From a virus, in IMG/VR virus record IMGVR_UViG_3300021091_000168, positions 1-39,778 of that record: DNA of 39,778 bases, one strand, 5' to 3'. Positions 1 through 36,693 of the stretch are shown piece by piece. The notes beneath the pieces were generated by a model that was given only the letters and a program-made list of their open reading frames with translations, searched no databases and was not told the origin of the DNA. Position 1 is the first letter of the stretch. Each line of letters opens with the position of its first letter. Position numbers and translations under genes: made by a program.

Positions 1-132
1 AAGGGATCGGATGCGAGAGTCGTGATCCTTGAGCTGGTCTTGTTGATATTGCTGCATAGAAAGTAATGCATCCATTTTACCTTCTAGCCTGCCGATTGCG
101 AGGAACAGTTCGTCGTGGTGTGGGGAGGTCAT
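1..132 (-). CDS. Small coiled-coil-like protein, 3' end cut by window edge
   Basis: An open frame of 44 codons runs from an ATG at 132 off the left edge without a stop. It begins MTSPHHDELFLAIGRLEGKM and continues with a Gln/Asp-rich, probably helical stretch. The ATG overlaps the stop of the preceding 53-aa gene as ATGA. Short proteins with a GRLEGKxDALL-type segment are common in phages near tail-fibre and lysis genes, but I know of no assigned function. Its first 8 codons are duplicated after two upstream tailspike genes (around 1800 and 3684), which makes it a landmark for rearrangement in this region. Reality of the gene is fairly sure; function is unknown. Confidence 0.72.
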   Translation of the reverse strand, partial: MTSPHHDELFLAIGRLEGKMDALLSMQQYQQDQLKDHDSRIRSL

Positions 133-290
133 GTGGCGTCCTGCTCAAGTGGCTGATTGCTAGCAGCCAACCACGCTTGGTAAGTTTCGTCAGTAACCGG
201 AATCAACGGCCACACGTTGTCAATATCGACCACGTGTTTTGGATCGTGCTTGCGGTACATAGTTGGCAATGGTTGTTCGTTTGTTTCCAT
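129..290 (-). CDS. Small 53-aa protein between tailspike and coiled-coil gene
   Basis: This complete 53-aa frame starts METNEQPLPTMYRK and ends with AWLAASNQPLEQDAT. The start lies one base after the tailspike stop (292), and its TGA overlaps the next ATG (ATGA), so it fits a translationally coupled cassette. The pattern of Val-Trp-Pro-Ile-Pro-Val followed by a Tyr-x-x-Trp-Leu-Ala and Asn-x-Pro ending resembles the short tail proteins, sometimes annotated as fibre-assembly-like, found just after tail fibres. That likeness is weak. No signal peptide or membrane segment is seen. It is absent from the corresponding spot after the other two spikes. Confidence 0.65.
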   Translation of the reverse strand: METNEQPLPTMYRKHDPKHVVDIDNVWPLIPVTDETYQAWLAASNQPLEQDAT

Positions 291-291
291 G

Positions 292-1719
292 TCAGACTCC
301 AAGGGTTAAATTAATCGGGATGGTACCAAAGACGCATATCGTTATGTTCTGCGAGCTAGCGAATTCATTCATCACGCGGATTTCATGGCTGTTTGACGTT
401 TTGGTCAAACTGATGCGACTTGCCGTGCCGGTTGCATTGGTGAACGTGCCACTAGGATTGCTTACTAGCGATACGGTTGCAGACTTGTAATCCGCGTATG
501 CCAGGCAACCATCACCACCACCAGTGTTGACCGTAAACAACTTTGATGATCCGCACGAGAACCTGACGGATTCCGCTGCCGGTACGGCAATCGTGGTGTT
601 CAGCACGCCAGTATCAACTGCGCCAGCACTAACTATTCCCCATGCAGTCGATCCAGTCGGATAGGAGATTCCTGTGACGCCCTTTCCGCTAGCCGTAATA
701 TTTTGAGAGGAATTGATTCGTCCGCTGACGTCTATCTCCGCCGTCGAGGTAATGCCAGTATTTCCCGTGCTGGTCGTGGAGAACTGCCAGTTGTTTTGCG
801 CCCCAGTCCAATATCCAGCAGATACATGGACGTACTGCGTGTTAGCGGTGTTCGTGATCATATTTCCAATACCGCCTGCAATAATCGTTGTCTGATGGCA
901 TCGATCCAGTTCGACCCCGCCTGAAAGCTTGTGGGCTTGAATGAAGGCTTGAGTCGGGTAATTCGGCGGTCCAGACAGCACGACCTTTCCACCAGTGTTA
1001 AGGGCGCCTCCGGCATTCACGAAGTCGCAGCCAGTGACATTCAGGTTGATGCATGAATATGCGTACATGGCTCCAAGCGCACCGCCGAAGATTACACAAT
1101 TCGTGATGTAAAACGTGCGGACATACACGCCCGGATTTGATCCGTCAAGATAGATCGCGTAGTCATGCCCCGATCCACCGCTGGTCAGGTAAAGATCGCG
1201 GCAGATCACGTAGCCGATGATTCCCGTAAAGCCCGCGGTGTTGGGCGACGAAACCCCGGATATCAGGCATCCGCCGGAACTTGTCGGGCTTGCCAGGCTG
1301 GTGATGTTGAGCGCATACACCCCAGAGGACTGCGACCCGATCCCAGGACCGCCGCGAAAGTTAAAGATGCCATCGCCCGGATTGGCCGTGACGAAGTTCT
1401 TGTAGACGTACGTTCGATTCATCCCCGCGCCGACAATCTGCGTGCTTGCGGTGATGTTGTTCGGCTTCGTGTTGAACCAGTACAAGCCGGGCGGCAGATA
1501 GAGAGTTCGCGTCTTGGATGTCCCAGCTGCAATCGCCGCCAGCGCAGCATTGAAGGTCGGAGTCGCGTCGGATGCAGAATTTACCGTCCATCCGCCAACC
1601 GCAAACTCCTCAATGCTGATTGCCATTTCCCGCAACTTGTCGTATGCAAGAACCTGCAACGAACCTGGCATTGCCTGCTGGAATGTAACCTGTTCTGAAG
1701 TTGGTTTAGTCATTGACAT
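292..1719 (-). CDS. Tailspike, right-handed beta-helix fold (third spike)
   Basis: This 475-aa protein is rich in Gly, Thr, Ser and Asn, with short repeating beta-strand-like units typical of pectate-lyase-fold spikes. Near residues 34-60 there is a degenerate form of the entry motif: SIEEFAVGG followed by DATPTFNAALAAIAAG, compared with the usual SVxDFGAVGDG..DDTxAIQxAIDAA. There is no obvious virion-anchor domain before it, only about 33 residues. The last ~90 residues match in layout the C-terminus of the 1001-aa fibre at 3681-6686: a Phe/Gly strand block, then R-I-x-(I/L)-T-K, (V/I)R(I/V), I-x-I-C-x-F-G, P, and a final L/V-G. The DNA is strikingly G+C-rich (37 of 60 bases in 1201-1260). 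The start has AAGGA upstream. It probably binds or cleaves host surface glycan; the enzyme activity is not shown. Confidence 0.75.
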   Translation of the reverse strand: MSMTKPTSEQVTFQQAMPGSLQVLAYDKLREMAISIEEFAVGGWTVNSASDATPTFNAALAAIAAGTSKTRTLYLPPGLYWFNTKPNNITASTQIVGAGMNRTYVYKNFVTANPGDGIFNFRGGPGIGSQSSGVYALNITSLASPTSSGGCLISGVSSPNTAGFTGIIGYVICRDLYLTSGGSGHDYAIYLDGSNPGVYVRTFYITNCVIFGGALGAMYAYSCINLNVTGCDFVNAGGALNTGGKVVLSGPPNYPTQAFIQAHKLSGGVELDRCHQTTIIAGGIGNMITNTANTQYVHVSAGYWTGAQNNWQFSTTSTGNTGITSTAEIDVSGRINSSQNITASGKGVTGISYPTGSTAWGIVSAGAVDTGVLNTTIAVPAAESVRFSCGSSKLFTVNTGGGDGCLAYADYKSATVSLVSNPSGTFTNATGTASRISLTKTSNSHEIRVMNEFASSQNITICVFGTIPINLTLGV

Positions 1720-1767
1720 ATAATATATTCCTTGTTAGTTTATTATAAGGGGAGATCATGGGCATGG

Positions 1768-1806
1768 TTAGGCTCGTTCGTCGTGGTGTGGGGAGGTCAT
1801 GGGCAT
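1768..1806 (-). pseudogene. Remnant of the left-edge gene start (copy after second spike)
   Basis: A 12-codon frame reads MPMTSPHHDERA then stops. Codons 3-10 are identical at nucleotide level to codons 1-8 of the gene starting at 132. It sits 12 bases after the stop of the 600-aa spike (1819). A further partial copy of its first bases (ATGCCCATGATCTCCCC) follows at 1749-1765. It is too short to be a useful protein. I read it as debris of a recombination event that placed a spike gene upstream of an existing copy of this gene. The alternative is a retained translation-coupling element. Confidence 0.7.
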
Positions 1807-1818
1807 AATTTGATCCGT

Positions 1819-3621
1819 TTACTTGGCGACCCACCCAGTGTTCCCGGTTCCGCTTTCCTTGACGTAGAAACACGTTCCTGCCCCGCCGTCACGACGAAGG
1901 AAGATTGACCCAGGCTGCGCCGAATACACCGTTTCCGGCGAGCCTGTGCCAACAAAAATCGCGGGGTATGCGCTCTCACCGACACTTGTGGAAATCACGC
2001 GACCTTCAGCGGTACGCGCACAAGCAATGCTGGGCCGTGTCGTGGTGGCCGATGCCGTAGTAATTGATATCCCGTCGCCGTCTGCTGTGTTATTGAATGT
2101 CGCAGCATTGTCAGCAGCAAGTGCTGCGGATTGCACGACTTTCGTTGCCGTCAGTTGATTGCAGAGAACTTCGCCAACACTACCCGCTGTTCCGGCACCA
2201 GTCTTTCCGAATCGCGCATGCGTGTTCGTTCCAGCCCCGGTGAATATGTATGGTGCCGTCGCGTCGGCAAGAATTGTCTTTGCCGTTGAAGACCATCCAC
2301 CACCAAACCGGACGCCATGAACGGCGCATCCCGTCGTATTGGCACCGAACTCAATGGCGTAGTTCGCCACCGAACTTGAGGTGTCTAGGGCGGTTCCGAT
2401 GATCGACAATGTGGTTGCTCCCGAGCCAAGCGTGCTCAATGCCAGAATGCCTCTAGCGTTCACGTCCGTGGGATTCATGCCCTCAATGTAACCACCGATG
2501 ATTGTGATGGTCCCGCCAGAATCTGACCTGATTCCGCACACGCCATTGGCTTGTCCGTTGAAGTCAAACGAATGAATGTCGGTTCCGTTGATGATGTTCG
2601 TGGCTGTTGCTGACAAGTCGATCCCGCGAACGCAACCGAGGCATCGGCTGTTCAGGAACTGGTTGTAGTACGTCGTTGCCGTAATGACTGACGTGTCGTT
2701 TGCGAACGCCTTCTCAAAGAATCGAACATCTGCGGAAATCGTGGAGTTGATGAACCCCGTGACGTCAATGCCAATGGAGCCAGCTACGCGGGCGTTCAAT
2801 GCACTCAACACAAACAGCCCGGTGATGTGGTTCGCAGACCCAGTACCTGGAGTCGCCTTCTTGATTGCTGCACCAGCATTGCCGCTTGTTTGCACAAACC
2901 CGAGTTGTCCGTTCAAACATGCCGACCCCCCAAGACTAAACAGCGTCGTAACCGTAGGCGCATAAAGGAATGCGTTGCTGAAATCGACCGTGACGCTTGC
3001 TGGTACGTTTAGCGTTGCCGTAATGCGATATGCCTTGCCCGCAGTAAATCGGACGAAGCCGCGTCCGTTGAGTGTCACCGCCGCCGTCAACGCTGCTTGC
3101 ACTGCAACAGTGTCATCGTTGCCATCAAGTCCCGTGGTCGTGTTTCCAACCGCGCCAAAATCTTCAACACTTACGACCTCACCGAACTTGCTCGCCGCGC
3201 TGCGGGTAACCGCACCGGCACCTGTTGGTAAATAAGTTACAAAAGAAGAATCAACCGTAGAAACATTTGACAAAACAAAATTAACAACTTCAATATTATT
3301 AGTTCCCGCAGGAGGTGCTGCGGAAAATGTCAGTGTTGTCCCAACAACAGTATAAGTATTTCGTTGTTGATAAATACCATTAATATAAATATTAGTTCCA
3401 TTGCCCAAGGCACCAGGGTTTGATGCTAGGGTAAACTGGGTTTGTGCCCCCGTTCCACTGAATAGTTGTCTATTCATTGCAGCTGGGTTTGTTGGCATCA
3501 GCGAGGCTGAGTCAATGTAGGTCATCCAGTTAGTACCAGTCCAGACATATGTTGTTGTACCATATGTATATTGCTGGTTAACAGCTGGGTTTGCGGGAAA
3601 GGATATGGATGTATTAGGCAT
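1819..3621 (-). CDS. Tailspike, right-handed beta-helix fold (second spike)
   Basis: The protein is 600 aa. Residues 1-~130 form an N-terminal head (PxxNQQYTYGTTTYVWTGTNW, then a FSGTGAQTQFTL segment) resembling phage fibre/spike domains with a wrapped-tryptophan strand unit. A linker, TGAGAVTRSAASKFGE, leads to the entry motif VSVEDFGAVGN and DDTVAVQAALTAA of the pectate-lyase superfamily, and then a long Gly/Ser/Thr-rich beta-helix. The C-terminus has the widespread spike end motif PGSIFLRRDGG...YVKESGTGNTGWVAK. Base composition changes at the linker: 14 G+C in row 3241-3300 (head) against 32 in row 3121-3180 (helix side). This supports acquisition of the helix module. The likely role is receptor binding or glycan depolymerisation. 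Confidence 0.78.
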   Translation of the reverse strand: MPNTSISFPANPAVNQQYTYGTTTYVWTGTNWMTYIDSASLMPTNPAAMNRQLFSGTGAQTQFTLASNPGALGNGTNIYINGIYQQRNTYTVVGTTLTFSAAPPAGTNNIEVVNFVLSNVSTVDSSFVTYLPTGAGAVTRSAASKFGEVVSVEDFGAVGNTTTGLDGNDDTVAVQAALTAAVTLNGRGFVRFTAGKAYRITATLNVPASVTVDFSNAFLYAPTVTTLFSLGGSACLNGQLGFVQTSGNAGAAIKKATPGTGSANHITGLFVLSALNARVAGSIGIDVTGFINSTISADVRFFEKAFANDTSVITATTYYNQFLNSRCLGCVRGIDLSATATNIINGTDIHSFDFNGQANGVCGIRSDSGGTITIIGGYIEGMNPTDVNARGILALSTLGSGATTLSIIGTALDTSSSVANYAIEFGANTTGCAVHGVRFGGGWSSTAKTILADATAPYIFTGAGTNTHARFGKTGAGTAGSVGEVLCNQLTATKVVQSAALAADNAATFNNTADGDGISITTASATTTRPSIACARTAEGRVISTSVGESAYPAIFVGTGSPETVYSAQPGSIFLRRDGGAGTCFYVKESGTGNTGWVAK

Positions 3622-3627
3622 TTATAG

Positions 3628-3684
3628 TTACTGCTTTCTTATGTAAGGGGGATGAGTTAGATTGTCGTGGTGTGGGGAGTTCAT
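3628..3684 (-). pseudogene. Remnant of the left-edge gene start (copy after first spike)
   Basis: An 18-codon frame starts MNSPHHDN and runs to a TAA at 3628. Its ATG overlaps the TGA of the 1001-aa fibre (ATGA), the same coupling used by the intact gene at 132. Over about 22 bases it differs from the intact copy at only three positions by eye (ACC to AAC, and GAA to AAT). It lies wholly in the spacer before the next spike. I interpret it as a degenerated 5' end left by insertion of the next spike gene. It is unlikely to encode a functional product. Confidence 0.68.
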
Positions 3685-6600
3685 GGGCCAACCGTAATTG
3701 ATGTCGGAACGCATCCAAACGCGCAAATTGAAATGCTTTGCGGACCTACCGTGCCGTTTTGAATACGGACTTGATTCGACGAAGAATCTTTCGTGATGTT
3801 GATTCGGTTTGGTGTTCCGATGGTGTTGCTGAACACATCCGCTGTCCCCGTAGCAATTAGAGAAATTCCTGCCATGTTAAAATCACCAAAGCAAAGCACC
3901 GATCTGTTGTTAACGCAAACAATAAAGAATGCAGCTCCAGTGAGATTGAAATACAGGCTTTCGCTTGTATGGATAGCACCACTGCTATGCGTTGATGGAG
4001 CAAGCGTCGGTGCCCTAGCGTTTGCTTGAGTCAATAAATTATCTTGTGTTGGCAATGAACCGATCCCGCACAATGCAATCGGAAGTTGCCAATCTGAGTT
4101 GTTGTTGATTGGGACCACACCTGTCACGGTCGCGTTTATTGCTTGTGGAATAAAACCAATCTGCGTTGGGTTTGCAAGATTCCGCACGCGCTGCGTCGTA
4201 GACCAGTTGCCCATCCCAATCATCGTGTAAACATTGGAGCCGACCGCAGCTGGTTTTGTGTTCGCCACACTGTATACGGAGTTTCCGTCGATCACACCCC
4301 GAGTTGCTTGGTTTGTGATGACTGCCTTGTCATCAAAAAATACAGTAGTATCTTGCAGGCAGTCATAGCAACTGTTGTTGGTGACAACGGCATTTTTCCC
4401 ACCTTGAACGTAAATTCCGTACCGTAGGGCATTGCGGACGATGTTGCCGTCAACAACGATAGAATCGATGGGATTCATCGTAAAAATTCCGGTGCCTCCG
4501 CTGTTAATCACGATGTTGCTTGTAATCGTACATGACGTTGGTTTGTCCGCATGCGAGTTGCCAGAGTTGATTGTGACTCCACTAGAGGATAGAAGTATAC
4601 CTCCTGGTGGATGATAGGTATTGTTGATGCAATAGTTCCCATTGATAAGGAACGATTCCGTGTATTCGATCATTGTTGCGGAGTCGTATTCAGACACATA
4701 GTTGTCTTGGATGGCACATTGAGCACATCCGCGTGCCTTGATTCCGCGAATCGATAGTAGTGTACCTTGCCTATGCTCGTCACGGAAGCGGCCAATCACG
4801 TAGTTAGATGCTGCCTCCCCATATCCGCATCCAATGAATGTTACTCCAAAACCGCTCCCATCGATAGTTGAGTTTGTCAGTGCCGCCTTGTTGCATATAA
4901 AAAATATACACACTTGACCAGCATGCACGAACTTATGAAACCTGCATTGATTGACCGTTGCGTTCAAAGACGGACCATTGATAGCGCACGGGGATCGTGT
5001 TTCATTATCCGTGATGTTTGGACCAATGAATTCCACATTTTCAACAAGCACGTTTTCATAGCCATGCACGACAAGTCCGACACCATAGTCCGGAAATGCC
5101 GGACTGGCTGCGCTGTTCCTGTTGTCGATGGAGCCGTTCGCAATCTGTAAATCTCCGTGCAACGCGGTGTATGTCTTGATGTTTAGATACTCAGCCGTTG
5201 CGATGTCTGTGTAATCCATTGGAAGTGGATCGGCGATAGTAATGTTCGTCCCGCTGATGTTGACGATTTTTGAGGCGTGAGCTGCGACTTCATGATTTTT
5301 ATTTCCGGTTCTTACTGGCTCAACAACAAGCCACTGACCAACAGCCATGCCACTTGCGCTGCCGACACCGAGAACCGTCGTTCCGCGTGTAAACCCGGAT
5401 GACCAAGTCGTGGTTGCCGTGGCAGTAGGGGCGGCACGATACAGGCCACGCGATGTGCTATACGGCAAGATGGTGGATTTGCCCAGATCAATCGTGATTC
5501 CGGCGGTCGGCAAGTTGACCGTGGAATTGATTCTGTATGCACCACGCGGAAACACGACGATCTTCCCGGAAGCAGCATCGATTGCTGCCTGAATCGCGGT
5601 CGTATCATCCGTCACACCATCCCCGACCGCGCCGAAGTCTTTAACACTGATGAATTCATTTAACTTGGCACCAACAGTTCTAGCTACAGCACCCGTACCA
5701 GTTTGTGTAAACGGTACCACAGTACCCGCAGCAAATGTCTTAGCAGCTGTTAAGGTTTGAACTGTATTTGTTGAAACTAGGTTAGCCGTAGTAACAGGAG
5801 TACCAGCCACAGCAACCCAAGCATTACCAGCCCAAGCACTTAGTTGACCAGACTTAGGGTTAAACCATAAACCAGAAGCACCAGCAGTTGGTGCGGTTTC
5901 TAGAATGTCTATGGCACTAGAGCTAGGGGCTGAGTCATCTTTAGTCATAACCCCATGCTCAAATAATCTATTCAGAGAGTATAATCTAGTCGTTGCATTA
6001 GCATCTGCTGTGGGCGCAAGTACAGAGACAGTTCCATTAAAAGACCAAGGAGTATTAGCTGTGGATATTTTACTGGGGGTAACAGCTCCATCTATAATCT
6101 GTAAGGTGTTTACCGTATTGTTAGCTAGGTTAAACACTAGGCTATAGTTTGTAGTTGTAAGAATAAAAACTCTATCTAGTAACTCTTGTGCTAAATATAG
6201 AAATTGAGTTGTCTGTAAGTTTAACTGAGAGCTGGTTAATTTAGAACCTGGTACCCAACTAATTAAAGGAATATTGCTAACAGTTTTTCTTCTAATTGTT
6301 ATATTGGAGTTATCCACTATAGCAGGTACTTTAATTGTTTCTGGCACATTTGGAGTGTTTGTTTTATAATAAACAAAATTATAAACATCACCAGTAGATG
6401 GTAAGTTGATTGCTGTTATTGTTTTAGTTTGGTTGTTTATTGTTAAACGACTGTTGGGAACTAAGAACAATTCTCTTTTGTCTGATTGTTTTACATTTAA
6501 ATCAGTTAAGAAATTTGTAATTACTGAAGTGCTTCCATCTCTGTCTGAAGAAAAAACTCTTTCTACTTCTAGTTGTGCATTAAATGGAATGTTGGGTATT

Positions 6601-19143: not shown

Positions 19144-21021
19144 TTAAATAATTTCACAACCCCCAGCCGTACAAGCCATAGAGTGTGAAGATGTTGTTGT
19201 ATCATTTAACTCATAATCCTTTAACTTAGAAAAATCTACAAGAACTTTTGGAGACATGTTATAGGTACGAGCATCAATAGTTTCAAAGGGAGCTTGAGCA
19301 TATGTATGGTCACACTTGGGTAAGAATGATATACCTGATATCTTATCAAAGTTTTTCCAAACCCAGTTACCAATCTCTAAGAACTCATCATCTGTATAAG
19401 ACACAGTGATACTAGGCTTATGGTGACAATAGAATTGTTGATAGTCTAACCATAGCTGTAGGTGTTCCATTGCTCCTAGTGTTTCACTGGTTTGTGTACC
19501 TAGTTCTGCTCTTTGGGGAAATGTAAACACAGCTGTAGACTCAGGATTCATTACACAATCCTCTACCGTAACCCCTTGATCTCTCATCATAGCATACATT
19601 GGATCTTTCTTATCCAACCGTACACGTCTATAATAATACTCAGAGTATCTTGGGTGTAACCCAGACGCTGAGTTTGCTAAACAAGATGTAGTACCTTCTG
19701 GCTTGATACACGTGATTGATTTACTAGGAGCGATACCTAATTTATCAGACCAAACAAGATTAGTATATTCAGTAGTTTCTTTTAAAACTTCCAAAACATA
19801 CTTGAGCTTTGGTCTACCTTCTTTACCAGACATAAGTTTGTTATCAAAGATGCCAGTCATACTGACACCCAACAATCTTTCTTCTTTACAATTCTTTTCC
19901 CAAGAGTTTCTTAAGTATGGGAAATGTGTAAACATACTTTGGATTGTACCTATAACAGTAGCTTGTTCAATCTTACGATTTAAAGTTTCTATATTATCAT
20001 CAGCCCGAACAACAACTGTAGATAAATTACAGAATTGATTGGGTCGTAGAATAATTTCTGAACAAGGGTTTGTACCAAAGAAATATTCTTCTGTATCTCT
20101 GTGTGATGCTTTGGCAATATCAGTCATGGCTTGTCTGTTACAAATACCACGTTCGCCTGAGTGCGAGTTATAAAGATCAGACCACTCTTCCATGAACTGC
20201 CCCATAGAAGGTCGATCTTGATATACAGCAGAGTTATTTGCTAGTGATCTGTGTGATGCCGTTTCCCACCAAGCACCAGACTTACAGTTTGCCATCTCAC
20301 GATCTGATAGATCAGACAGTGAAATCATAGCAGACCTACGAACACCACCCACAATAACAGACTGGGCAATCTTACAACAGATGTCATGACACTCTAGAGA
20401 ACTGAGGTGGCGACCTCGTGCTTTGTAAAATGATTGTGTTACATATCTAAACACTTCTTCAAGGGGCTGTGGTCCACTTGCTCGACCACCAAATGTCTTC
20501 AGTCTTTCGCCTGCTTTGCGAACTTTAGAAGTATCCCACTTGGGATGAACTCCACTGTAAAGATTTGTGATTAATGATTCTAAAGAGTTACACCAACCTT
20601 CTCTTGAGTCTTCGACAACAATGGGTTTTTCCCAAACTTTTTCTATTGATGTTGGTACGAGAGGTAATTTATTTACACAACGTGATTCAACGCTGTAGCC
20701 AACACCAGTGCCACACATTAAGATATACATTAGTTCACAGAATGCTTTGGGAGAATCAATCTCCATATAAGCACAGTTATATAAAGCTGTATTATCTTTT
20801 TCTAAAGCAACCCCAGCGGTCATAAGACCACGCATACTGGGTAGAACTTCTAGATTAAGAATGGCTGATTTAATATCAGGTCTTTCTAATAATTGGGGTG
20901 CTTTGTTTGTAAAGAAAGACCACCATCTTTCTACTGTTTCTTCCCATGTTTCACGGCGACCTAAATTTGGTAGCCATCTTGAGTAACGACTTAGTGCTAT
21001 AAATTCTTGAAATGTATTCAT
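19144..21021 (-). CDS. nrdJ: Class II (B12-dependent) ribonucleotide reductase, monomeric RTPR type
   Basis: The start at 21021 follows GGAGTTTAATATG, giving 625 aa. It reduces ribonucleotides to deoxyribonucleotides with adenosylcobalamin. The redox pair Cys83 (YNCAYM) and Cys331 (FCNLS) and the active-site NPCSEI with Cys320 and Glu322 are all present. The 11-residue spacing between Cys320 and Cys331 equals that of the Lactobacillus RTPR (408/419). The C-terminal ACTAGGCEII carries the shuttle cysteines 617 and 622, five apart as in RTPR. GGVRRSAMISLSD and KPEGTTSCLANSASGLHPRY are further family blocks. It works with the dUTPase, ThyX and kinase encoded nearby to supply dNTPs, and needs host cobalamin. 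Confidence 0.95.
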   Translation of the reverse strand: MNTFQEFIALSRYSRWLPNLGRRETWEETVERWWSFFTNKAPQLLERPDIKSAILNLEVLPSMRGLMTAGVALEKDNTALYNCAYMEIDSPKAFCELMYILMCGTGVGYSVESRCVNKLPLVPTSIEKVWEKPIVVEDSREGWCNSLESLITNLYSGVHPKWDTSKVRKAGERLKTFGGRASGPQPLEEVFRYVTQSFYKARGRHLSSLECHDICCKIAQSVIVGGVRRSAMISLSDLSDREMANCKSGAWWETASHRSLANNSAVYQDRPSMGQFMEEWSDLYNSHSGERGICNRQAMTDIAKASHRDTEEYFFGTNPCSEIILRPNQFCNLSTVVVRADDNIETLNRKIEQATVIGTIQSMFTHFPYLRNSWEKNCKEERLLGVSMTGIFDNKLMSGKEGRPKLKYVLEVLKETTEYTNLVWSDKLGIAPSKSITCIKPEGTTSCLANSASGLHPRYSEYYYRRVRLDKKDPMYAMMRDQGVTVEDCVMNPESTAVFTFPQRAELGTQTSETLGAMEHLQLWLDYQQFYCHHKPSITVSYTDDEFLEIGNWVWKNFDKISGISFLPKCDHTYAQAPFETIDARTYNMSPKVLVDFSKLKDYELNDTTTSSHSMACTAGGCEII

Positions 21022-21022
21022 A

Positions 21023-21532
21023 TTAAACTCCAGTTGATCCAAACCCACCATTATTTCTATCTGTAGTATTAAGATTCGTAACTTCAACAAATCTAGCACA
21101 TATGGTTGGAGTAAGAATTAACTGGGCTAATCTTGTACCTTTAGAAAATGATTTTATACCACCTGATATATTTGTTAACATAAGTTTAATTGTACCTCTG
21201 TAATCAGGATCTATAACACCGACACCATTACTTAAGACAATACCACTTAAGGCTACGCTGGATCTAATATAAACTAAACCAGCTGTGTTTATAGGTAACT
21301 CTAAAGAAACACCTGTATCAATCAGGGTTGGCATATTACATTGTAAAGTAAACTCGTTTAAGCAAGCTAGGTCAGCCCCTACGGACATTGCCGTTTGAAA
21401 CATTGGTAGCTTTGCGTTTTGTTCTAATTTAACCTTAACAGCGTTATAGTTCTGGTGAACATAGGTTGCTGCTGAAACCTCAGTGGGGTTTGAAAAGGTG
21501 TTTGAACTGATATAATAACTATCTGTTGACAT
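21023..21532 (-). CDS. dut: dUTPase (dUTP diphosphatase)
   Basis: The protein is 169 aa from the ATG with AAGGATAAGATAT upstream. All five trimeric dUTPase motifs are visible: SVGADL (50-55), RSSVALSGI (90-98), NGVGVIDPDYRG (102-113, with the catalytic-loop Asp), KGTRLAQLIL (131-140) and the C-terminal NGGFGSTGV (161-169) that closes over the substrate. It hydrolyses dUTP to dUMP and PPi, keeping uracil out of DNA and feeding ThyX. A non-conserved N-terminal extension of about 40 residues precedes motif 1. It is followed after one base by the RNR start. Confidence 0.95.
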   Translation of the reverse strand: MSTDSYYISSNTFSNPTEVSAATYVHQNYNAVKVKLEQNAKLPMFQTAMSVGADLACLNEFTLQCNMPTLIDTGVSLELPINTAGLVYIRSSVALSGIVLSNGVGVIDPDYRGTIKLMLTNISGGIKSFSKGTRLAQLILTPTICARFVEVTNLNTTDRNNGGFGSTGV

Positions 21533-21569: not shown

Positions 21570-22310
21570 TTAGGCAGGGTTCCATAGAATTGGTTCTTTT
21601 GTATCTGAATTATACTCTCCATCCCGCAATATCCTAACACATTGTGCCATTTTTACACAATAATCAAGACTGTAGGGGTTTCCTTGTGCATCTTTAGCTT
21701 GCTCGTATGCACCCAAAACAGCGTCGGTCCAGTTGTGTGGTTGAACCGAGTCTAATAACTTCTGTGCTTTTATTGGACCACACTTCCAGATTCCAGGTAT
21801 GTTATCAGTAGTATCCCCCGTAAGCCACTGCTTATGAAAGTTATACTCTGCCTGTCTAGCATCAACAAGAACTGGTTTATCTTCTTTATCTGGATTCCAA
21901 TGCCATCCCCGTACAGATCTAAGATCTTTGTCTATGGTTACAGCCACAGCACGATAGCCTGATGCCATGATACCCATAACATCATCAGCTTCTAGTTGGG
22001 GAATATCTAACTTGTTACCAACTTTGGTAACCAACTCAACGGCTAAGGGTAAAGCTTCGGGAACCTTTCGGTTAACATCCCTGTGCCTTTTATACGGATC
22101 CCAAATCTTACGCCTAAAGTTATCAGACCTTGCACATGATACTGCTATGTGTACTGTAGTAATACCAGGGGGTACCCATGCTTTGACATCATGATCTACT
22201 CTGGTTTCAATATCTTCAATACCCTCAGACTCTGCCCAGAAAGCAATCCTGTACGCTAGTATATCGCCGTCTAATACAGCAACCTTAGGCATTGGTTCAA
22301 GATTCATCAT
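21570..22310 (-). CDS. 5'-3' exonuclease, T7 gp6-like (FEN/PIN fold)
   Basis: The protein is 246 aa from an ATG preceded by AAGGATGGAATACG; a second start three bases on is possible. Acidic metal-ligand motifs of the FEN/PIN fold occur in order: LDGD (13-16), QLEADDVMG (105-113), TIDKDL (125-130) and TGDTTDNIPG (164-173). The last is the diagnostic GDxxDNxPG loop before the helix-hairpin region (CGPIKAQKLL). T7 gp6 is 300 aa. The role would be removal of RNA primers and degradation of DNA ends, also supplying host nucleotides. It overlaps the previous 42-aa gene by 14 bases. Confidence 0.88.
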   Translation of the reverse strand: MMNLEPMPKVAVLDGDILAYRIAFWAESEGIEDIETRVDHDVKAWVPPGITTVHIAVSCARSDNFRRKIWDPYKRHRDVNRKVPEALPLAVELVTKVGNKLDIPQLEADDVMGIMASGYRAVAVTIDKDLRSVRGWHWNPDKEDKPVLVDARQAEYNFHKQWLTGDTTDNIPGIWKCGPIKAQKLLDSVQPHNWTDAVLGAYEQAKDAQGNPYSLDYCVKMAQCVRILRDGEYNSDTKEPILWNPA

Positions 22311-22425
22311 CGTATTCCATCCTTGTCCTCTTACGTAAGTCCAGCCAATAAGCATGATCTTGTTCTGGTGTTGTCTCGTTATCGTTTACATCGTCTTCTA
22401 AATCTTCATCTTCTGGATCAACCAT
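22297..22425 (-). CDS. Small acidic protein, 42 aa
   Basis: The frame opens MVDPEDEDLEDDVNDNETTP and ends with a basic and then acidic stretch (RKRTRMEYDDES). A strong site, AGGAGAATATTAATG, precedes it, and it overlaps the exonuclease start by 14 bases, giving coupling. About 15 of 42 residues are Asp or Glu, suggesting a disordered protein; DNA mimicry is a possibility but nothing supports it directly. No family was recognised. Confidence 0.65.
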   Translation of the reverse strand: MVDPEDEDLEDDVNDNETTPEQDHAYWLDLRKRTRMEYDDES

Positions 22426-24040: not shown

Positions 24041-25747
24041 TTAATGAGTATCATTCCAATTCAAACCTATAGTATACTCGGCATCTATAGGAATATTAAG
24101 ATTAAGTCTGACACCAGCTTTGTTAGCTGAGTCTTTAATTATTTGACCAACATCATCAGCTATATCTTTAGGTGCAGCATACTGTAGTTCATCATGTATA
24201 TAAGCCATCTGAAATACTTTGCTACCATACTTGGCATTTAGTTGCTCATCTGCAATAACCATCCATAACTTTGATACAACAGCCCCCGCACCTTGTAACA
24301 GGGTATTTAATGCAGCATGTTCCTTGCGAACAGGAACTGATCTGCCGTCGGGTAAAGTAACACTGTTGGATTTTAAGAATTCATACCGAACTTGTTCTTG
24401 AACTTTAGTCAATGCAGGGATTTCTTTCTGAAACTTTTTACGAAGATTGTCAGCGTTTGCAGAAGAACATCCTAGAACTTTAGATAACTTTGTGTTACTA
24501 GCACCATATAGATAAGCATATATAAAGGACTTGGCTAAGTTTCTGTCAGCAAGACCAGCTGCTTCTTGGTTGTGGGAATGTATATCACCATTGATCAGTA
24601 CTGTAGCGTAGTTACCGTTATCATACTTGGACATATAGTGTGCCAACATTCTCAATTCCAAACCCTTGAGATCAGAACCAACCTGAACATATCCATCTAT
24701 ATTTGGAAACCACAGGGAACGAACCCTAGGGTCACTAGAGACTTGGGCTACATTAGGTTGGCTGTGGGTACATCTACCAGTCGCTGCCCCCTGAGGGTTG
24801 ATGCTACCGTGTATCCTGTGATCACGGGAAGCAAACGCTCTGAGATTCCAGTCTTCAACTTGACCAATAAGTTTTACAAGATCAAAGTATTTTACCAATG
24901 CTTTGGCTTCATCATACTTTAGTTTGCTTAGAACTTCTTCGTCAACTTTAGGATTACCCTTATCTGTAGTTGGTGCAACCCATCCGTACTTTTCTTCCAA
25001 CCTCTCAGCAATCTGTACTCTAGAACCTGGGTTGAATACTTCGACCTTGTTCTTAAGTGCCTTACCTGTTTTCTTTGAGTACCTTACGTGTATCTTATCT
25101 GGAAAGATTTCACGCATGTTGTCTTCAATTTCTACTTTTTCTAGAATCAAAGACTCAAGTAGATTGTCACCCAATGTTAGATTGTAACCAAAACCATTCT
25201 CCACTTGTTTGAATAAGACATGAGAAACTTGGTGTTCAAATTTAACTAATGTTTTATTAGTGATGATAAAGGGTAATTGATACTCATATATCTGTTCACT
25301 AAGGAGAACATCATTTAGACAATACCTACCCATGTCATCTGAGTAGTGTGACCAATCTCCATTGTATTCTATTTTAGGAAACTTAAGAAACTTACCCCAG
25401 TTTTCCAAAGAGTTACCACCAAGCTTGTGATCGTTCCTGTCTGGAAACATTAAGCGAGATACAACTAATGTATCTACAACAAGTCTTGGCATCGTTAAAC
25501 CCAATAAGCGAACTAGCACTGGTAAATCATAACCATAAATGTTATGACCCACAAGTACATCAAACTTACTGAGGTATAAAACTAAATCCTTTAGTTGACT
25601 TTCGGTCCACAACCTAGGTTTAGAATCCTTGTAATCCTTTGTTGCTACGCACCATATTTTAGTGCATTCTTTTTTAGCAATTCCTTTCTTTTCTATATTG
25701 ACTTCTGATAAAGCATTACCTTCGATATCTAGTATACAAGTTTTCAT
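24041..25747 (-). CDS. DNA polymerase, family A with 3'-5' exonuclease, T7 gp5-like
   Basis: The protein is 568 aa. Exonuclease motifs: Exo I LDIEGNAL (Asp7, Glu9), Exo II GHNIYGYDLPVL (Asp74), Exo III YCLNDVLLSEQ (Tyr142, Asp146). Polymerase motifs: A SDLKGLELRMLAHYM (Asp359), B RNLAKSFIYAYLYGA (Arg402, Lys406, Tyr410), C YIHDELQY (Asp519). The O-helix position equivalent to T7 Tyr526 is Tyr. It is about 136 residues shorter than T7 gp5. The stretch between the exonuclease domain and FNPGSR (residues 239-244) is short, so the T7 thioredoxin-binding insertion appears to be missing. It is coupled to primase-helicase by an ATGA overlap. It replicates the genome. Confidence 0.95.
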   Translation of the reverse strand: MKTCILDIEGNALSEVNIEKKGIAKKECTKIWCVATKDYKDSKPRLWTESQLKDLVLYLSKFDVLVGHNIYGYDLPVLVRLLGLTMPRLVVDTLVVSRLMFPDRNDHKLGGNSLENWGKFLKFPKIEYNGDWSHYSDDMGRYCLNDVLLSEQIYEYQLPFIITNKTLVKFEHQVSHVLFKQVENGFGYNLTLGDNLLESLILEKVEIEDNMREIFPDKIHVRYSKKTGKALKNKVEVFNPGSRVQIAERLEEKYGWVAPTTDKGNPKVDEEVLSKLKYDEAKALVKYFDLVKLIGQVEDWNLRAFASRDHRIHGSINPQGAATGRCTHSQPNVAQVSSDPRVRSLWFPNIDGYVQVGSDLKGLELRMLAHYMSKYDNGNYATVLINGDIHSHNQEAAGLADRNLAKSFIYAYLYGASNTKLSKVLGCSSANADNLRKKFQKEIPALTKVQEQVRYEFLKSNSVTLPDGRSVPVRKEHAALNTLLQGAGAVVSKLWMVIADEQLNAKYGSKVFQMAYIHDELQYAAPKDIADDVGQIIKDSANKAGVRLNLNIPIDAEYTIGLNWNDTH

Positions 25748-27534: not shown

Positions 27535-27927
27535 TCAACAGTTTACTTGTAATATAAAGTAACCCTCAGAATTTTTTTCTGCCCATTGTTTGGTAACATA
27601 CAGAGAGATAATTTGTGTATCATCTTCCCATAGTTTACCATTCATGGTGTCTAAGATAGCTTTGGCAAAGTTATCAATATCTGGGCGTGGGTATTCCTTA
27701 TCTGTTTTCTTAGGTCTTTTAACATGCAACTCTATAGATACAGCTAAGGTATTGGTGAGAGGTTTAAACCCACTTCCAATGGTATTCCACACCTTTTCAG
27801 CAGCTTCTTCACGGAACTTTTTGTAAGATCCTACATAAAAAGCACCCCACCTACTAACCCTGGGTCTAGAAGCAGCCACAGGATTGATATTGAATTGCCA
27901 ACTTAAGGTCTTAGAAGGGGAGGTCAC
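27535..27927 (-). CDS. RusA-family Holliday junction resolvase
   Basis: The protein is 130 aa with a GTG start preceded by AGGAAGACA; the GTG lies inside the SSB 3' end (17-base overlap). The RusA fold signature is clear: an N-terminal strand with VAASRPRVSRWGAFYVGSY (17-35), then PRPDIDNFAKAILDTMNG (80-97) and WEDDTQIISLYVTKQWA. Catalytic carboxylates would be Asp83, Asp85 and Asp102/103 with a Lys nearby. It occupies the place of T7 endonuclease I (gp3), directly after the SSB, so it should resolve branched DNA before packaging. RusA in E. coli acts on Holliday junctions in the same way. Confidence 0.88.
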   Translation of the reverse strand: MTSPSKTLSWQFNINPVAASRPRVSRWGAFYVGSYKKFREEAAEKVWNTIGSGFKPLTNTLAVSIELHVKRPKKTDKEYPRPDIDNFAKAILDTMNGKLWEDDTQIISLYVTKQWAEKNSEGYFILQVNC

Positions 27928-28444
27928 TGTCTTCCTGATCCTCTGGTTCTGTTACATCGCGTGTTGGTACACCCGAACGAACAAAACCACCCTCAACAGG
28001 AGTGAAACTGTTGTCCTTAGTAACAGAGTTCTTCTCAATAACCTGAATACCATTCAGATAGATTGATAAAGAATTATCTCTAGTTAGAACCATCGGTGCC
28101 AACTTGAGACGAACTTTGTCACCACCAAACGGAACTGTGTCCGTAGCTTGTCCCAAAGAATCGACACAAGGGAACATGCCAGCATCCACATGAACCTTAG
28201 ATTTTGCTTTAAATGTTGTAACACCGTCTGCCTCCCGTAACCCATTTAGTTTCTTTGCTCCACTGTTCTTAAGAACAGTATCCAAAACTTTCTTAAACTC
28301 AGTATCAACAACAACAGTAATGTTGTGGTTAGCACTGCCTTCTCCGAAAGCAACATCTGGCTTCAGTAGATTACTCCACTTGGTTTCCAATGTTGGTGTG
28401 ATAAATTGAGGAATTCTTTTAGTCTTCTTGTTTGTTGTTGCCAT
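27911..28444 (-). CDS. Single-stranded DNA-binding protein, gp2.5-like
   Basis: The start was taken at 28444 (MATTNKKTKRIPQF...), giving 177 aa (T7 gp2.5 is 232). The sequence has an N-terminal segment FITPTLETKWSNLLKPD and the block KSKVHVDAGMFPCVDSLGQ, then VRLKLAPMVL and IYLNGIQVIEKN, consistent with an OB-fold. It ends with an acidic tail and terminal aromatic residue (EPEDQEDSDLPF), the hallmark of gp2.5 needed for contact with polymerase and helicase. Its position before resolvase, helicase and polymerase repeats the T7 order 2.5-3-4-5. The RBS is weak, but its start lies inside the upstream gene, so coupling is likely. Confidence 0.88.
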   Translation of the reverse strand: MATTNKKTKRIPQFITPTLETKWSNLLKPDVAFGEGSANHNITVVVDTEFKKVLDTVLKNSGAKKLNGLREADGVTTFKAKSKVHVDAGMFPCVDSLGQATDTVPFGGDKVRLKLAPMVLTRDNSLSIYLNGIQVIEKNSVTKDNSFTPVEGGFVRSGVPTRDVTEPEDQEDSDLPF

Positions 28445-28634
28445 TAGTAGAACTTTCTTCTGTATTGTTAGTTTGCGAGATGCGCTTGATAGATGCAACT
28501 TGTGCATTGATATCAACCACAATTGAACTTAGAACAGCAGCCATGTTTAAAAGATACTGGCATACACTGTCGCTACGAATAGCAGGAACATTTCCTGTAG
28601 TAGCTTCTTCAGTTTGAGTTTCCGTAACTGTCAT
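28419..28634 (-). CDS. Small hypothetical protein upstream of SSB, 71 aa
   Basis: The protein is 71 aa with an excellent site, AAAGGAGGATATTAAATG, stronger than that of the SSB it overlaps by 26 bases. The centre (SVCQYLLNMAAVLSSIVVDI) is a hydrophobic helix flanked by Thr/Glu-rich ends, and the tail is Asn/Ser/Glu-rich. The helix could be membrane-associated or a dimer interface. Function is unknown. It probably boosts SSB translation through the overlap. Confidence 0.65.
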   Translation of the reverse strand: MTVTETQTEEATTGNVPAIRSDSVCQYLLNMAAVLSSIVVDINAQVASIKRISQTNNTEESSTNGNNKQED

Positions 28635-33620: not shown

Positions 33621-34628
33621 TTAGATCATTTGCAACGCCATCTGAGCAACCTTGACAGACTCATCTTGTGATGAACCTAACAGGTTATTATAAGCACGAT
33701 TCTCCCAACCAACCTTACGACCCTTGGCTGATACATTGTGTTGGAGATACTTGGTAACTGAGTTCACAGCCATCCATGCACTTGGGGGTGCAGATAGGTT
33801 GTGTCTCTCTTCATCAAAGTTCTCTGACCACTTGGAAACCTTAACTGTAGCATCAGTATAAATTCTGAAATCATCTTCAGTTACTGGGTTGGGGTTTACT
33901 GGAGCAAACAGTTGCTCGTAAACCTTAAGATAAAAGTCTCTGATGTTTTCTGTAGTCCATTTTGTAGTAGACAAAGCCTGAACACTTTCTTCAAACATCT
34001 TACCAGTCTGAGCAAACATTCGCAATGCTTCTCTCATTGCTTCTTTCTTCTCTTCGATGTTTCCTGTATGGGTAAATCGAATCATGTTCTTCTTAGCAGT
34101 ACTGAGAGCCATCCTAAGTGTGTTTGCACAAACAATACGAACACTGGTTGGTAATCCACTAAGAGCTAAAGTACCATCGTGTGATGATAACAAAGCAAGA
34201 TACTCAGTAATAGAATCATTAGTAGAATTACTTGGAGCAAAGGTATTGCCTTGAACAAGACAGATAATCTTCTTCCCGCCCTGTAAAGATAGGGCAGACT
34301 CAACCTTTACATTATCACCTAGTGAATACGCTAGATCAAACACTTCATGGTTTTGCACAACCTGATATTCAGGTGACTGAACAGAAAGAATTGTGTTAGT
34401 GTCGTCACGAACTATTGCACAAAACTTATCTGAATAACTGTCTTCCCAAGTTTCATCATTACCAATCTTTGCAAAGATTCCAGAAGACTTGGTTACAGTC
34501 CAATCCAAGCCAGATAACTTAAGTGCTTCTGCTGGACTAGGTGCATTCTCCACCACATAACCTAAACCATGCCATGCTTTTTCTTTTGTAAACATAGCAC
34601 CGTCTGTCGTGGTAATTTCATGAGCCAT
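33621..34628 (-). CDS. DUF932 phage/plasmid-like protein
   Basis: The protein is 335 aa with TAGGAGAAAATTATG. The DUF932 pattern is clear: the opening TKEKAWHGLGYVVENAPSPAEALKLSGLDW-type block (residues 14-43), VRDDTNTILSVQSPEYQVVQN, VQGNTFAPSNSTNDSITEYL, then TSVRIVCANTLRMAL and a helical C-terminus. This family is common in large plasmids and in T7-like and marine phages, often early in infection. No activity is known. It lies just after the tRNA-Leu and before ThyX. Confidence 0.88.
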   Translation of the reverse strand: MAHEITTTDGAMFTKEKAWHGLGYVVENAPSPAEALKLSGLDWTVTKSSGIFAKIGNDETWEDSYSDKFCAIVRDDTNTILSVQSPEYQVVQNHEVFDLAYSLGDNVKVESALSLQGGKKIICLVQGNTFAPSNSTNDSITEYLALLSSHDGTLALSGLPTSVRIVCANTLRMALSTAKKNMIRFTHTGNIEEKKEAMREALRMFAQTGKMFEESVQALSTTKWTTENIRDFYLKVYEQLFAPVNPNPVTEDDFRIYTDATVKVSKWSENFDEERHNLSAPPSAWMAVNSVTKYLQHNVSAKGRKVGWENRAYNNLLGSSQDESVKVAQMALQMI

Positions 34629-35674: not shown

Positions 35675-35897
35675 ATTCAATCCAGTCTCCTTTGTTATAG
35701 GGTTTATCCGAAATAACATAACCAGATCCACGATTGTGGGTAAAGAATCCAGCAACTATTCTAGTAACATAAGAATCTTTATCTTGGAATACAGTCCACA
35801 CTTTGTTTTCGTTTACTGCTTTCTTAAAGTATTCTTCTGATGCTTGGTCATTAGTAACTTCGATCCAGTTACCATATTTAGCTTTAAAGTTTTTCAT
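35664..35897 (-). CDS. Small hypothetical protein, 77 aa
   Basis: The start at 35897 (MKNFKAKYGNWIEVTNDQAS) gives 77 aa. It overlaps the Gp88-like gene by 14 bases. It includes VWTVFQDKDSYVTRIVAG and a Gly-rich end YVISDKPYNKGDWIEYDW. Small beta-rich domains of this length are common in phage early regions, and no family was recognised. It overlaps the next gene by 11 bases. Confidence 0.58.
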   Translation of the reverse strand: MKNFKAKYGNWIEVTNDQASEEYFKKAVNENKVWTVFQDKDSYVTRIVAGFFTHNRGSGYVISDKPYNKGDWIEYDW

Positions 35898-36693
35898 TAG
35901 AAATAGTTTCCATAGTAACAAGAAATGGAGAGGGTAATACCTTTCCCTTTGGTTTCAATAAGACTATAGACTTGGCAGGGTCAAGATATCTTTGGTCGTG
36001 TACATCGCCATCAACAACATCAAACAATCTTGAATCATTGGGGAATGAGAACTTACCCCACTTCAATATCTGTTCTTTATTTGTACAAACCACAGCAACA
36101 TTACCACCTTGATCTAGTACATCCAAACACTCGGATAAATTGTATCCAGAATAAGAGAATGTTATATGTAAATCTTCATGTTTGTTTTTGAATATATCCA
36201 TCCTCTTGGTGTAATCGTAATTGTTTACAGTAAAGGTATATATCTCAGGTACCAGTAAAGACCAATTGATATCCGATATAACATTACTTCGGAATGCCCA
36301 GTCATATAAGCCGTGTTTCTTAGAACATAACCACAACTCATGTAACAACTGGGATATAAACACTTCAGGTTCTATAGCCAGTAACCTAGTTTTTCTTATT
36401 CTAGCCTGCTGAACTGAAGTAAATCTAGATTTACCCGCTATCTTTCCAAGACAACTATCAGAACAATCTTTAGTTGCTTTGGGACACACATTATATCCAC
36501 TGAGAATGTGTGGTGCCAAGGATAAACCATAGGTTGGCACATTATTTTTATTTAGTTTTGTATTACCGTTTGGTGGTGTCAGTAATTTGAAATCAAGGAA
36601 AAATCTTTTCTTTCCTGGTCTCCAATACTGGACAGCATCTCTAGCCGATGAGGAAATAAATTGTACTGGCAGGGGTTTTATTACATCTATCAT
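35884..36693 (-). CDS. Gp88-like phage protein (Pfam GP88-type)
   Basis: The protein is 269 aa. The block NVPTYGLSLAPHILSGYNVCPKA (residues 51-73), then CSDSCLGKIAGKSRFTSVQQ and ARIRKTRLLAIEPEVFI matches the conserved core of the phage gene product 88 family: a Ser-Leu-x-Pro, a Gly-x-N-x-C-P, and a Cys-x-x-x-Cys-L followed by an Arg-rich helix. Four Cys (around 69, 77, 81) suggest a metal site. Later it has DVVDGDVHDQRYLDP and a strand-rich end. Function is unknown. It is coupled by ATGA to the upstream 63-aa gene. Confidence 0.78.
   Translation of the reverse strand: MIDVIKPLPVQFISSSARDAVQYWRPGKKRFFLDFKLLTPPNGNTKLNKNNVPTYGLSLAPHILSGYNVCPKATKDCSDSCLGKIAGKSRFTSVQQARIRKTRLLAIEPEVFISQLLHELWLCSKKHGLYDWAFRSNVISDINWSLLVPEIYTFTVNNYDYTKRMDIFKNKHEDLHITFSYSGYNLSECLDVLDQGGNVAVVCTNKEQILKWGKFSFPNDSRLFDVVDGDVHDQRYLDPAKSIVLLKPKGKVLPSPFLVTMETISNEKL

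Follow-up and report, generated by a model that had tools for sequence, protein, structure and literature searches.

Apparent remnants of the next gene's start between tandem tail spikes of freshwater T7-like phages: a probable record of spike exchange

Short-tailed phages with more than one spike gene are familiar from dual-spike relatives of T7 and SP6, such as K1-5, and the gain of a second or third spike in such phages is usually deduced from mosaic alignments alone. For the tailspikes of Escherichia coli phages, conserved DNA motifs have been described that flank the receptor-binding domain; these include a 20-nt downstream tract, and they are proposed to be recombination hot spots (PMC10408124). 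Mosaic joints can also arise by the relaxed, short-homology recombination of phage annealing proteins, as described for temperate phages and Rad52-like proteins (PMC3945230). Finally, the free-standing endonucleases of T-even phages drive the transfer of the DNA that flanks them (PMC2988022).

How does the present locus compare with these systems? The DNA analyzed here, called the window (the whole stretch of 39,778 nt, IMG/VR record IMGVR_UViG_3300021091_000168), is that of a T7-like phage from freshwater. It encodes a T7-type RNA polymerase, a DNA polymerase A and a gp4-like primase-helicase (PF00940, PF00476, and PF21268), together with a nozzle protein (PF25675), and the T7-type terminase (PF22530) is found in a relative, contig L010. 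A terminase reading of window 24041-25747 was dropped; this gene is the DNA polymerase A instead. Elsewhere in the window, the replication region includes a phage-encoded ribonucleotide reductase (phrog_367, 19144-21099), a phage-encoded ThyX-type thymidylate synthase (PF02511, 32626-33291) adjoins the RNA polymerase gene, and the early region encodes members of the DUF932 and GP88 families, both of unknown function (33621-34628 and 35884-36693).

The tail region, for which megablast against cultured phages gave no match, lies on the minus strand in the order S1, S2, S3, a small ORF, and gene X, which runs past the window edge (Table 1). In S1, the profile PF12708 scores over its cut-off and PF03906 slightly under (23.8 vs 25.2). 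S2 shares a conserved anchor block with its counterpart in L010, and the bodies of the two are divergent. The family search gave S3 no match of its own; the S3 anchor region has a 59.5% match in the K1-5 endosialidase. S2 and S3 are read here as putative spikes from their anchors and position, for S3 from anchor homology and position only. Their AlphaFold models have a mean pLDDT of 43 and 38, respectively, and fold searches were not based on them.

Table 1. Features of the tail region and of candidate recombination genes in the window, and 3' ends of the X-start remnants (scars). Numbers are window positions; contigs are named where the row concerns them.
Feature	Position or contig	Strand	Remark
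S1 primary tail fibre/spike, 1001 aa	3681..6686	-	T7-tail-fibre-like N-terminus and pectate-lyase-like body
Scar A, X-start remnant, 23/26 nt	3660..3685	-	between S1 and S2; opens mini-ORF MNSPHHDNLTHPPYIRKQ, then stop
S2 putative second spike, 600 aa	1819..3621	-	MPNTSISF anchor common to L010, L051, L040
Scar B, exact copy of first 26 nt of X start region	1776..1801	-	mini-ORF MTSPHHDERA, then stop
Apparent fossil leader/start GCCTAACCATGCCCATGA of another S3-type spike (MPMTKPTSEQVTF type), body gone	1756..1773	-
Scar C, shortened, altered older scar (ATGATCTCCCC)	1749..1759	-	directly 5' of S3 leader; homologous to L010 18-nt scar
S3 putative third spike, 475 aa	292..1719	-	MSMTKPTSEQVTF anchor
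Small ORF (METNEQPLPTMYRK...)	129..290	-	between S3 and X, overlaps X start; family search without match
Gene X, first 44 codons	1..132	-	cut by window edge; complete in L011, 73 aa
Gp2.5-like single-strand binding/annealing protein	27911..28522	-	phrog_112, E=7e-11
RusA-like Holliday junction resolvase	27535..27927	-	phrog_140, E=2e-24
5'-3' exonuclease-like protein, weak match	21570..22355	-	PF02739, E=6e-9
Scar 3' end at X nt 18	L010 S2/S3
Scar 3' end at X nt ~21-24	window and L010 S1/S2; L016, L051		in L016, L051 before X homologue
Scar 3' end at X nt 34	L014
Scar 3' end at X nt 36	L023, L056, L058
Scar 3' end at X nt ~105	L051, L040

The start of X is not confined to X. The 24-nt sequence ATGACCTCCCCACACCACGACGAA occurs on the minus strand at 132-109 and 1800-1777 without mismatch and at 3684-3661 with three, and none of 100 dinucleotide-preserving shuffles of the window contained it. 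Extended to 26 nt, the copies span 133-108, 1801-1776, and 3685-3660, the latter two each lying 3' of a spike gene; they are called scars below. An earlier note on this DNA had stated that the start of the small gene recurs after the two upstream spikes, and so it does, in 26 of 26 and 23 of 26 nt, with a chance expectation of zero. The copy it called identical is identical, only at 1801-1776 and not at 1798-1806; the three changes it counted by eye in the third copy are the three mismatches found here. It was also right that each remnant runs into an early stop, both mini-ORFs ending before the next spike begins. The ATGA coupling that it described holds at S1, whose stop TGA overlaps the ATG of scar A (3684-3681), and fails at S2, whose stop lies 18 nt ahead of the ATG of scar B. 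The copies at 132 and 1800 are present in other contigs as well (L012/L021 and L011, the latter sharing 3245 nt with the window at 99.94% identity), and L010 has the same scar and leader as scar A.

A fourth, shorter copy had been listed too. Repeat material is indeed there, at 1773-1749, but it is not a mere shorter copy: the segment is chimeric, with GCCTAACCATGCCCATGA, the start of another spike, joined at ATGA to an old scar (CTCCCC...AATAAACTAACAAGG) that is present with its leader in L010. In the other collected contigs GCCTAACCATGCCCATGA is confined to the leader and start of spikes of the MPMTKPTSEQVTF type (L044 and L068: GCCTAACCCATGCCCATGACC), and the continuation of the old scar, AATAAACTAACAAGGAATATATTATATGTCAATGACT, matches the scar/spike junction of L010. 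On the simplest reading, a MPMTKPTSEQVTF-type spike would once have lain between S2 and the present S3 and have been deleted or replaced via the shared CCATGACC. The fourth copy would then record a spike lost or replaced, rather than an insertion.

What is gene X? Scanning IMG/VR by pattern and by protein, we collected about 80 related viral contigs with an intact copy. The complete protein has 73-79 aa; its N-terminal part, MTxPHHDELFLAIGRLEGK, is conserved, and one C-terminal segment is hydrophobic. 3' of the gene come other small genes and then the T7-type large terminase. X is a small membrane protein encoded between tail fibre and terminase genes, as is the product of the T7 holin gene 17.5, which occupies the same place. 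X thus resembles a holin gene by size, hydrophobic segment, and position, and may function as one. The protein has no match in Pfam and only weak families of unknown function in PHROGs, its matches among cultured phages are two weak ones to Microbacterium phages, and a degenerate X-start pattern was not found in bacterial and archaeal genomes. Among about 59 distinct X-start sequences, codons 2-4 are highly variable and codons 5-12 almost fixed, in DNA and in protein. The first codons of X look as if they had travelled with the upstream spike. Synonymous diversity is 0.18 in codons 5-12 vs 0.41 in the rest of X (p=0.002).

In 556 kb of DNA upstream of X in these relatives, the first 24 nt of X, with ≤3 mismatches allowed, have 14 copies on the strand of X and none on the opposite one, and seven other segments of X have 0-1 copies each. 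Each of the 14 matches lies 3' of a spike; what follows is a further spike, an HNH gene, or a divergent homologue of X. The prediction that scars accompany extra spikes was borne out under one uniform criterion: 9 of 32 tandem-spike contigs have them vs 0 of 35 others, each of the latter with at least 2.5 kb upstream of X (Fisher p=7e-4; p=5e-3 with near-duplicates collapsed; the p-values are descriptive, because the contigs are related and incomplete and the counts not independent). A junction-focused test raises the tandem-spike figure to 12 of 32. The other 20 have no significant scar between their spikes by this test; three of them retain no more than a leader remnant of the GCCTAAC type, and several have the stop of the upstream spike right against the next start. 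The idea that every insertion leaves a scar needs revision in view of these 20. Moreover, scars also serve swaps of existing spikes, and their number is for this reason not a simple count of insertions.

In the short contig L014 a scar lies behind the sole visible spike. In L014, L016, and L051, scars also precede a different X homologue, which points to transfer between lineages; the X-start tract is common to different phage lineages. L016 also has, between spike and scar (1571-1897, with X oriented on the + strand), a 108-aa S3-type gene that is an anchor almost without a body, perhaps a spike slot that has decayed or been emptied.

The 5' end of a scar is the X start codon, and the 3' ends vary (Table 1). 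A functional motif of fixed length was set aside on account of these variable joints. L051 and L040 keep about 105 nt of decayed X with deletions, a 14-nt deletion being the same in both, and past nt 24 the X match of L051 scores 31.7 vs a shuffled maximum of 14.5. With 3' ends that differ, and with ~105 nt kept in these two contigs, the scars are remnants of X and not a fixed signal. The gaps from spike stop to scar ATG are similar to those at intact X. Further stages of loss are seen in L069, with a 1-nt deletion, in L085, whose ATG is lost, and in L074, L077, and L079, with only the scar end or leader left.

The commonest scar ends in ...CTCGCC TAA CGGACTCACCAC ATGCC; the intact X genes of L044 and L067 end in ...TTCGCC TAA AGGACACGCCA ATGCCAATG. 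Where S3 leaders of this type are full-length, they are similar to the one that separates X from its next gene, and that of L015 outscores 460 of 460 control starts. This suggests that the commonest scar is X minus codon 13 to the end, lost possibly between TCGCC repeats. The earlier note had spikes entering by recombination at the start of the small gene. Recombination at the junction agrees with the data; a clean insertion at the X start is no more than one possibility. In L051 and L040, X persists as far as about nt 105, though with internal deletions, and the commonest scar looks like an internally deleted X, so that a displaced copy of X that decayed would account for the scars no less well.

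Where, then, does homology between contigs begin? L016 and L051 share 8084 nt at 99.93% identity from the first base of the scar, and the spikes upstream are unrelated; L040 and L051 have 201 nt in common (88%), likewise beginning at the first base of a scar. Two blocks are shared by L010 and the window: the longer (542 nt, 94%) starts 3 nt ahead of scar A and the shorter (85 nt, 92%) 2 nt ahead of scar C, and in both the scar, leader, and spike anchor lie inside the block and the spike bodies differ. At these four junctions, inter-contig homology starts within 3 nt of the first base of the scar, below unrelated spikes. The same holds at intact X: starting one base 5' of the X ATG, L010 and L011 share 5272 nt at 99.66% identity, below unrelated upstream spikes, and L010 and L046, at 99.6% identity, differ in four consecutive bases just before this ATG, where L046 is like L011. 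Of 404 pairwise alignments covering X, 337 start within 15 nt of its ATG, an edge that is partly expected, as unrelated spikes simply end there. The tract is thus conserved from the scar or X start on, directly beside variable spike bodies, in the manner of a tract that flanks a receptor-binding protein, and the breakpoints of natural sequences coincide with it. A pair with a spike in one contig that is cleanly absent in the other was not caught among the contigs compared. The scars, found only at tandem spikes where enough upstream sequence is available, and with homology starting at the X or scar start, are accordingly to be regarded, on comparative grounds, as X remnants left between stacked spikes, as the earlier note had proposed.

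The history that these data make likely is one in which the scars are remnants of the 5' end of X, spikes are added or exchanged by recombination at the spike-X junction, and a displaced X decays and then seeds further swaps. The ancestral state would be a single tail fibre followed by X. A new spike would enter between the two by recombination at or inside X, followed by an X copy or X start that came with it. The first X, now displaced, would lose sequence by deletion until its translationally coupled 5' end (~18-36 nt, or ~105 nt in two contigs) remained 3' of the older spike. Scar or X start would now be a short conserved tract 3' of a variable spike body, and with the conserved N-terminal anchor on the far side this would make the spike swappable. 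The exchange probably makes use of the phage's own T7-type annealing system; the Gp2.5-like, RusA-like, and exonuclease-like genes are a plausible candidate set for short-homology recombination. We infer from the contigs this order of events, the arrival of spikes with an X, the decay of the first X, and the enzymes. In some lineages, an HNH endonuclease beside the scar may help.

A more ambitious version, which we offer tentatively, makes the 5' end of X an active docking tract that spike cassettes can use repeatedly: DNA kept for recombination as well as for coding, and exploited by HNH genes. These phages would then gather spikes in much the way that other elements gather gene cassettes, only through short-homology annealing and not through a site-specific recombinase.

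A different function is conceivable for the scars, namely, that of translation leaders. The X-start mini-ORF would catch ribosomes finishing the upstream spike and pass them to the next by termination-reinitiation, and would be kept for this reason. The low synonymous diversity of X codons 5-12 is in keeping with it, as are some S3 genes without an obvious Shine-Dalgarno sequence. Does the mini-ORF stop where such a leader should? In the comparison of mini-ORFs (from which the rows of L069 and the window's "scar 2" are excluded for a misplaced start), the stop is within 12 nt of the next start or overlaps it in L044, L059, L068, L058, L014, and at the window's S1/S2 junction, but it lies 30-46 nt before the next start in L051, L016, L023, and L056. 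Scar length ranges from 18 to ~105 nt, with the frame broken in L069 and the start codon lost in L085; 20 of the 32 tandem contigs manage without a scar; and the exact homology break at the scar is left unexplained. Translation coupling is possible at some junctions (L044, L059, L068, L014). As a general explanation it has against it that scars vary in length, frame, and presence, and as such we consider it unlikely. Both could hold: the trimming of a displaced X may spare the coupling.

Less probable still is a homing-endonuclease cassette, in which an S3-linked HNH enzyme cuts the X start of a recipient, repair copies in HNH and S3, and HNH is later lost. T-even phages offer the precedent (PMC2988022). 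In L023 and L056 an HNH gene (phrog_99) sits directly 3' of the scar and abuts S3, and L073 resembles L071, which has HNH and S3, minus the HNH. The genes in question are near-identical, encode a 162-aa HNH/AP2 endonuclease, and overlap the S3-type spike start (L023:1873-2361, L056:8162-8650, L071:7914-8402). In L023 and L056, AGAACTTCACGCC, the end of the L071-type spike gene, precedes HNH, which hints that HNH and spike moved together. However, HNH is at the junction in these three of the 32 tandem contigs only and absent from all observed S1/S2 junctions, those of the window have none, and L071 has HNH but no scar. HNH appears to be an occasional partner, not a requirement.

An integron-like array, with the X start as attachment site and spikes as recombinase-inserted cassettes, would account for tandem cassettes that each end in the same short sequence; yet the joints fall at many positions (X nt 18, ~21-24, 34, 36, and ~105) with no fixed crossover core, no integrase was found among the window proteins scanned (a subset of ORFs), and there is very little to recommend it. 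A chance repeat or an assembly artefact was ruled out for practical purposes, with zero copies expected from shuffles, other X segments near-absent upstream, and the same junctions recurring in independent assemblies from other samples.

If the scars are remnants of displaced X copies, additions, swaps, and losses of spikes become directly legible, with natural intermediates ranging from long decayed X through short scar and fused scar to no scar. As a marker, they would let spike exchange be followed in freshwater phages that are uncultured, and they provide a candidate sequence of ~24 nt for the site of exchange. Part of the history of host-recognition genes could thus be read from viral DNA.

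With regard to known systems, phages of the K1-5 type are multi-spike like the window, and we know of no next-gene start remnant at their junctions. Remnants of this kind multiplied between tandem spikes were not found described in the open-licence literature. As in the T-even homing systems, an HNH gene adjoins the junction and flanking DNA appears to be co-transferred (PMC2988022); unlike there, only three contigs bear HNH and most scars are without it; homing is a candidate mechanism here. The window's Gp2.5-like protein and RusA-like resolvase are comparable with the annealing systems of temperate phages (PMC3945230), and their role here would be analogous. The closest parallel is with the E. 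coli tailspike motifs: in both cases short conserved tracts lie on either side of a variable spike body (PMC10408124). There, the downstream tract is non-coding and a predicted terminator, whereas the tract described here belongs to the coding sequence of the next gene, whose start it forms, and its truncated copies have built up between tandem spikes, apparently as a record of events. Spike mosaicism is already known; next-gene start scars between tandem spikes would be a new variant of it.
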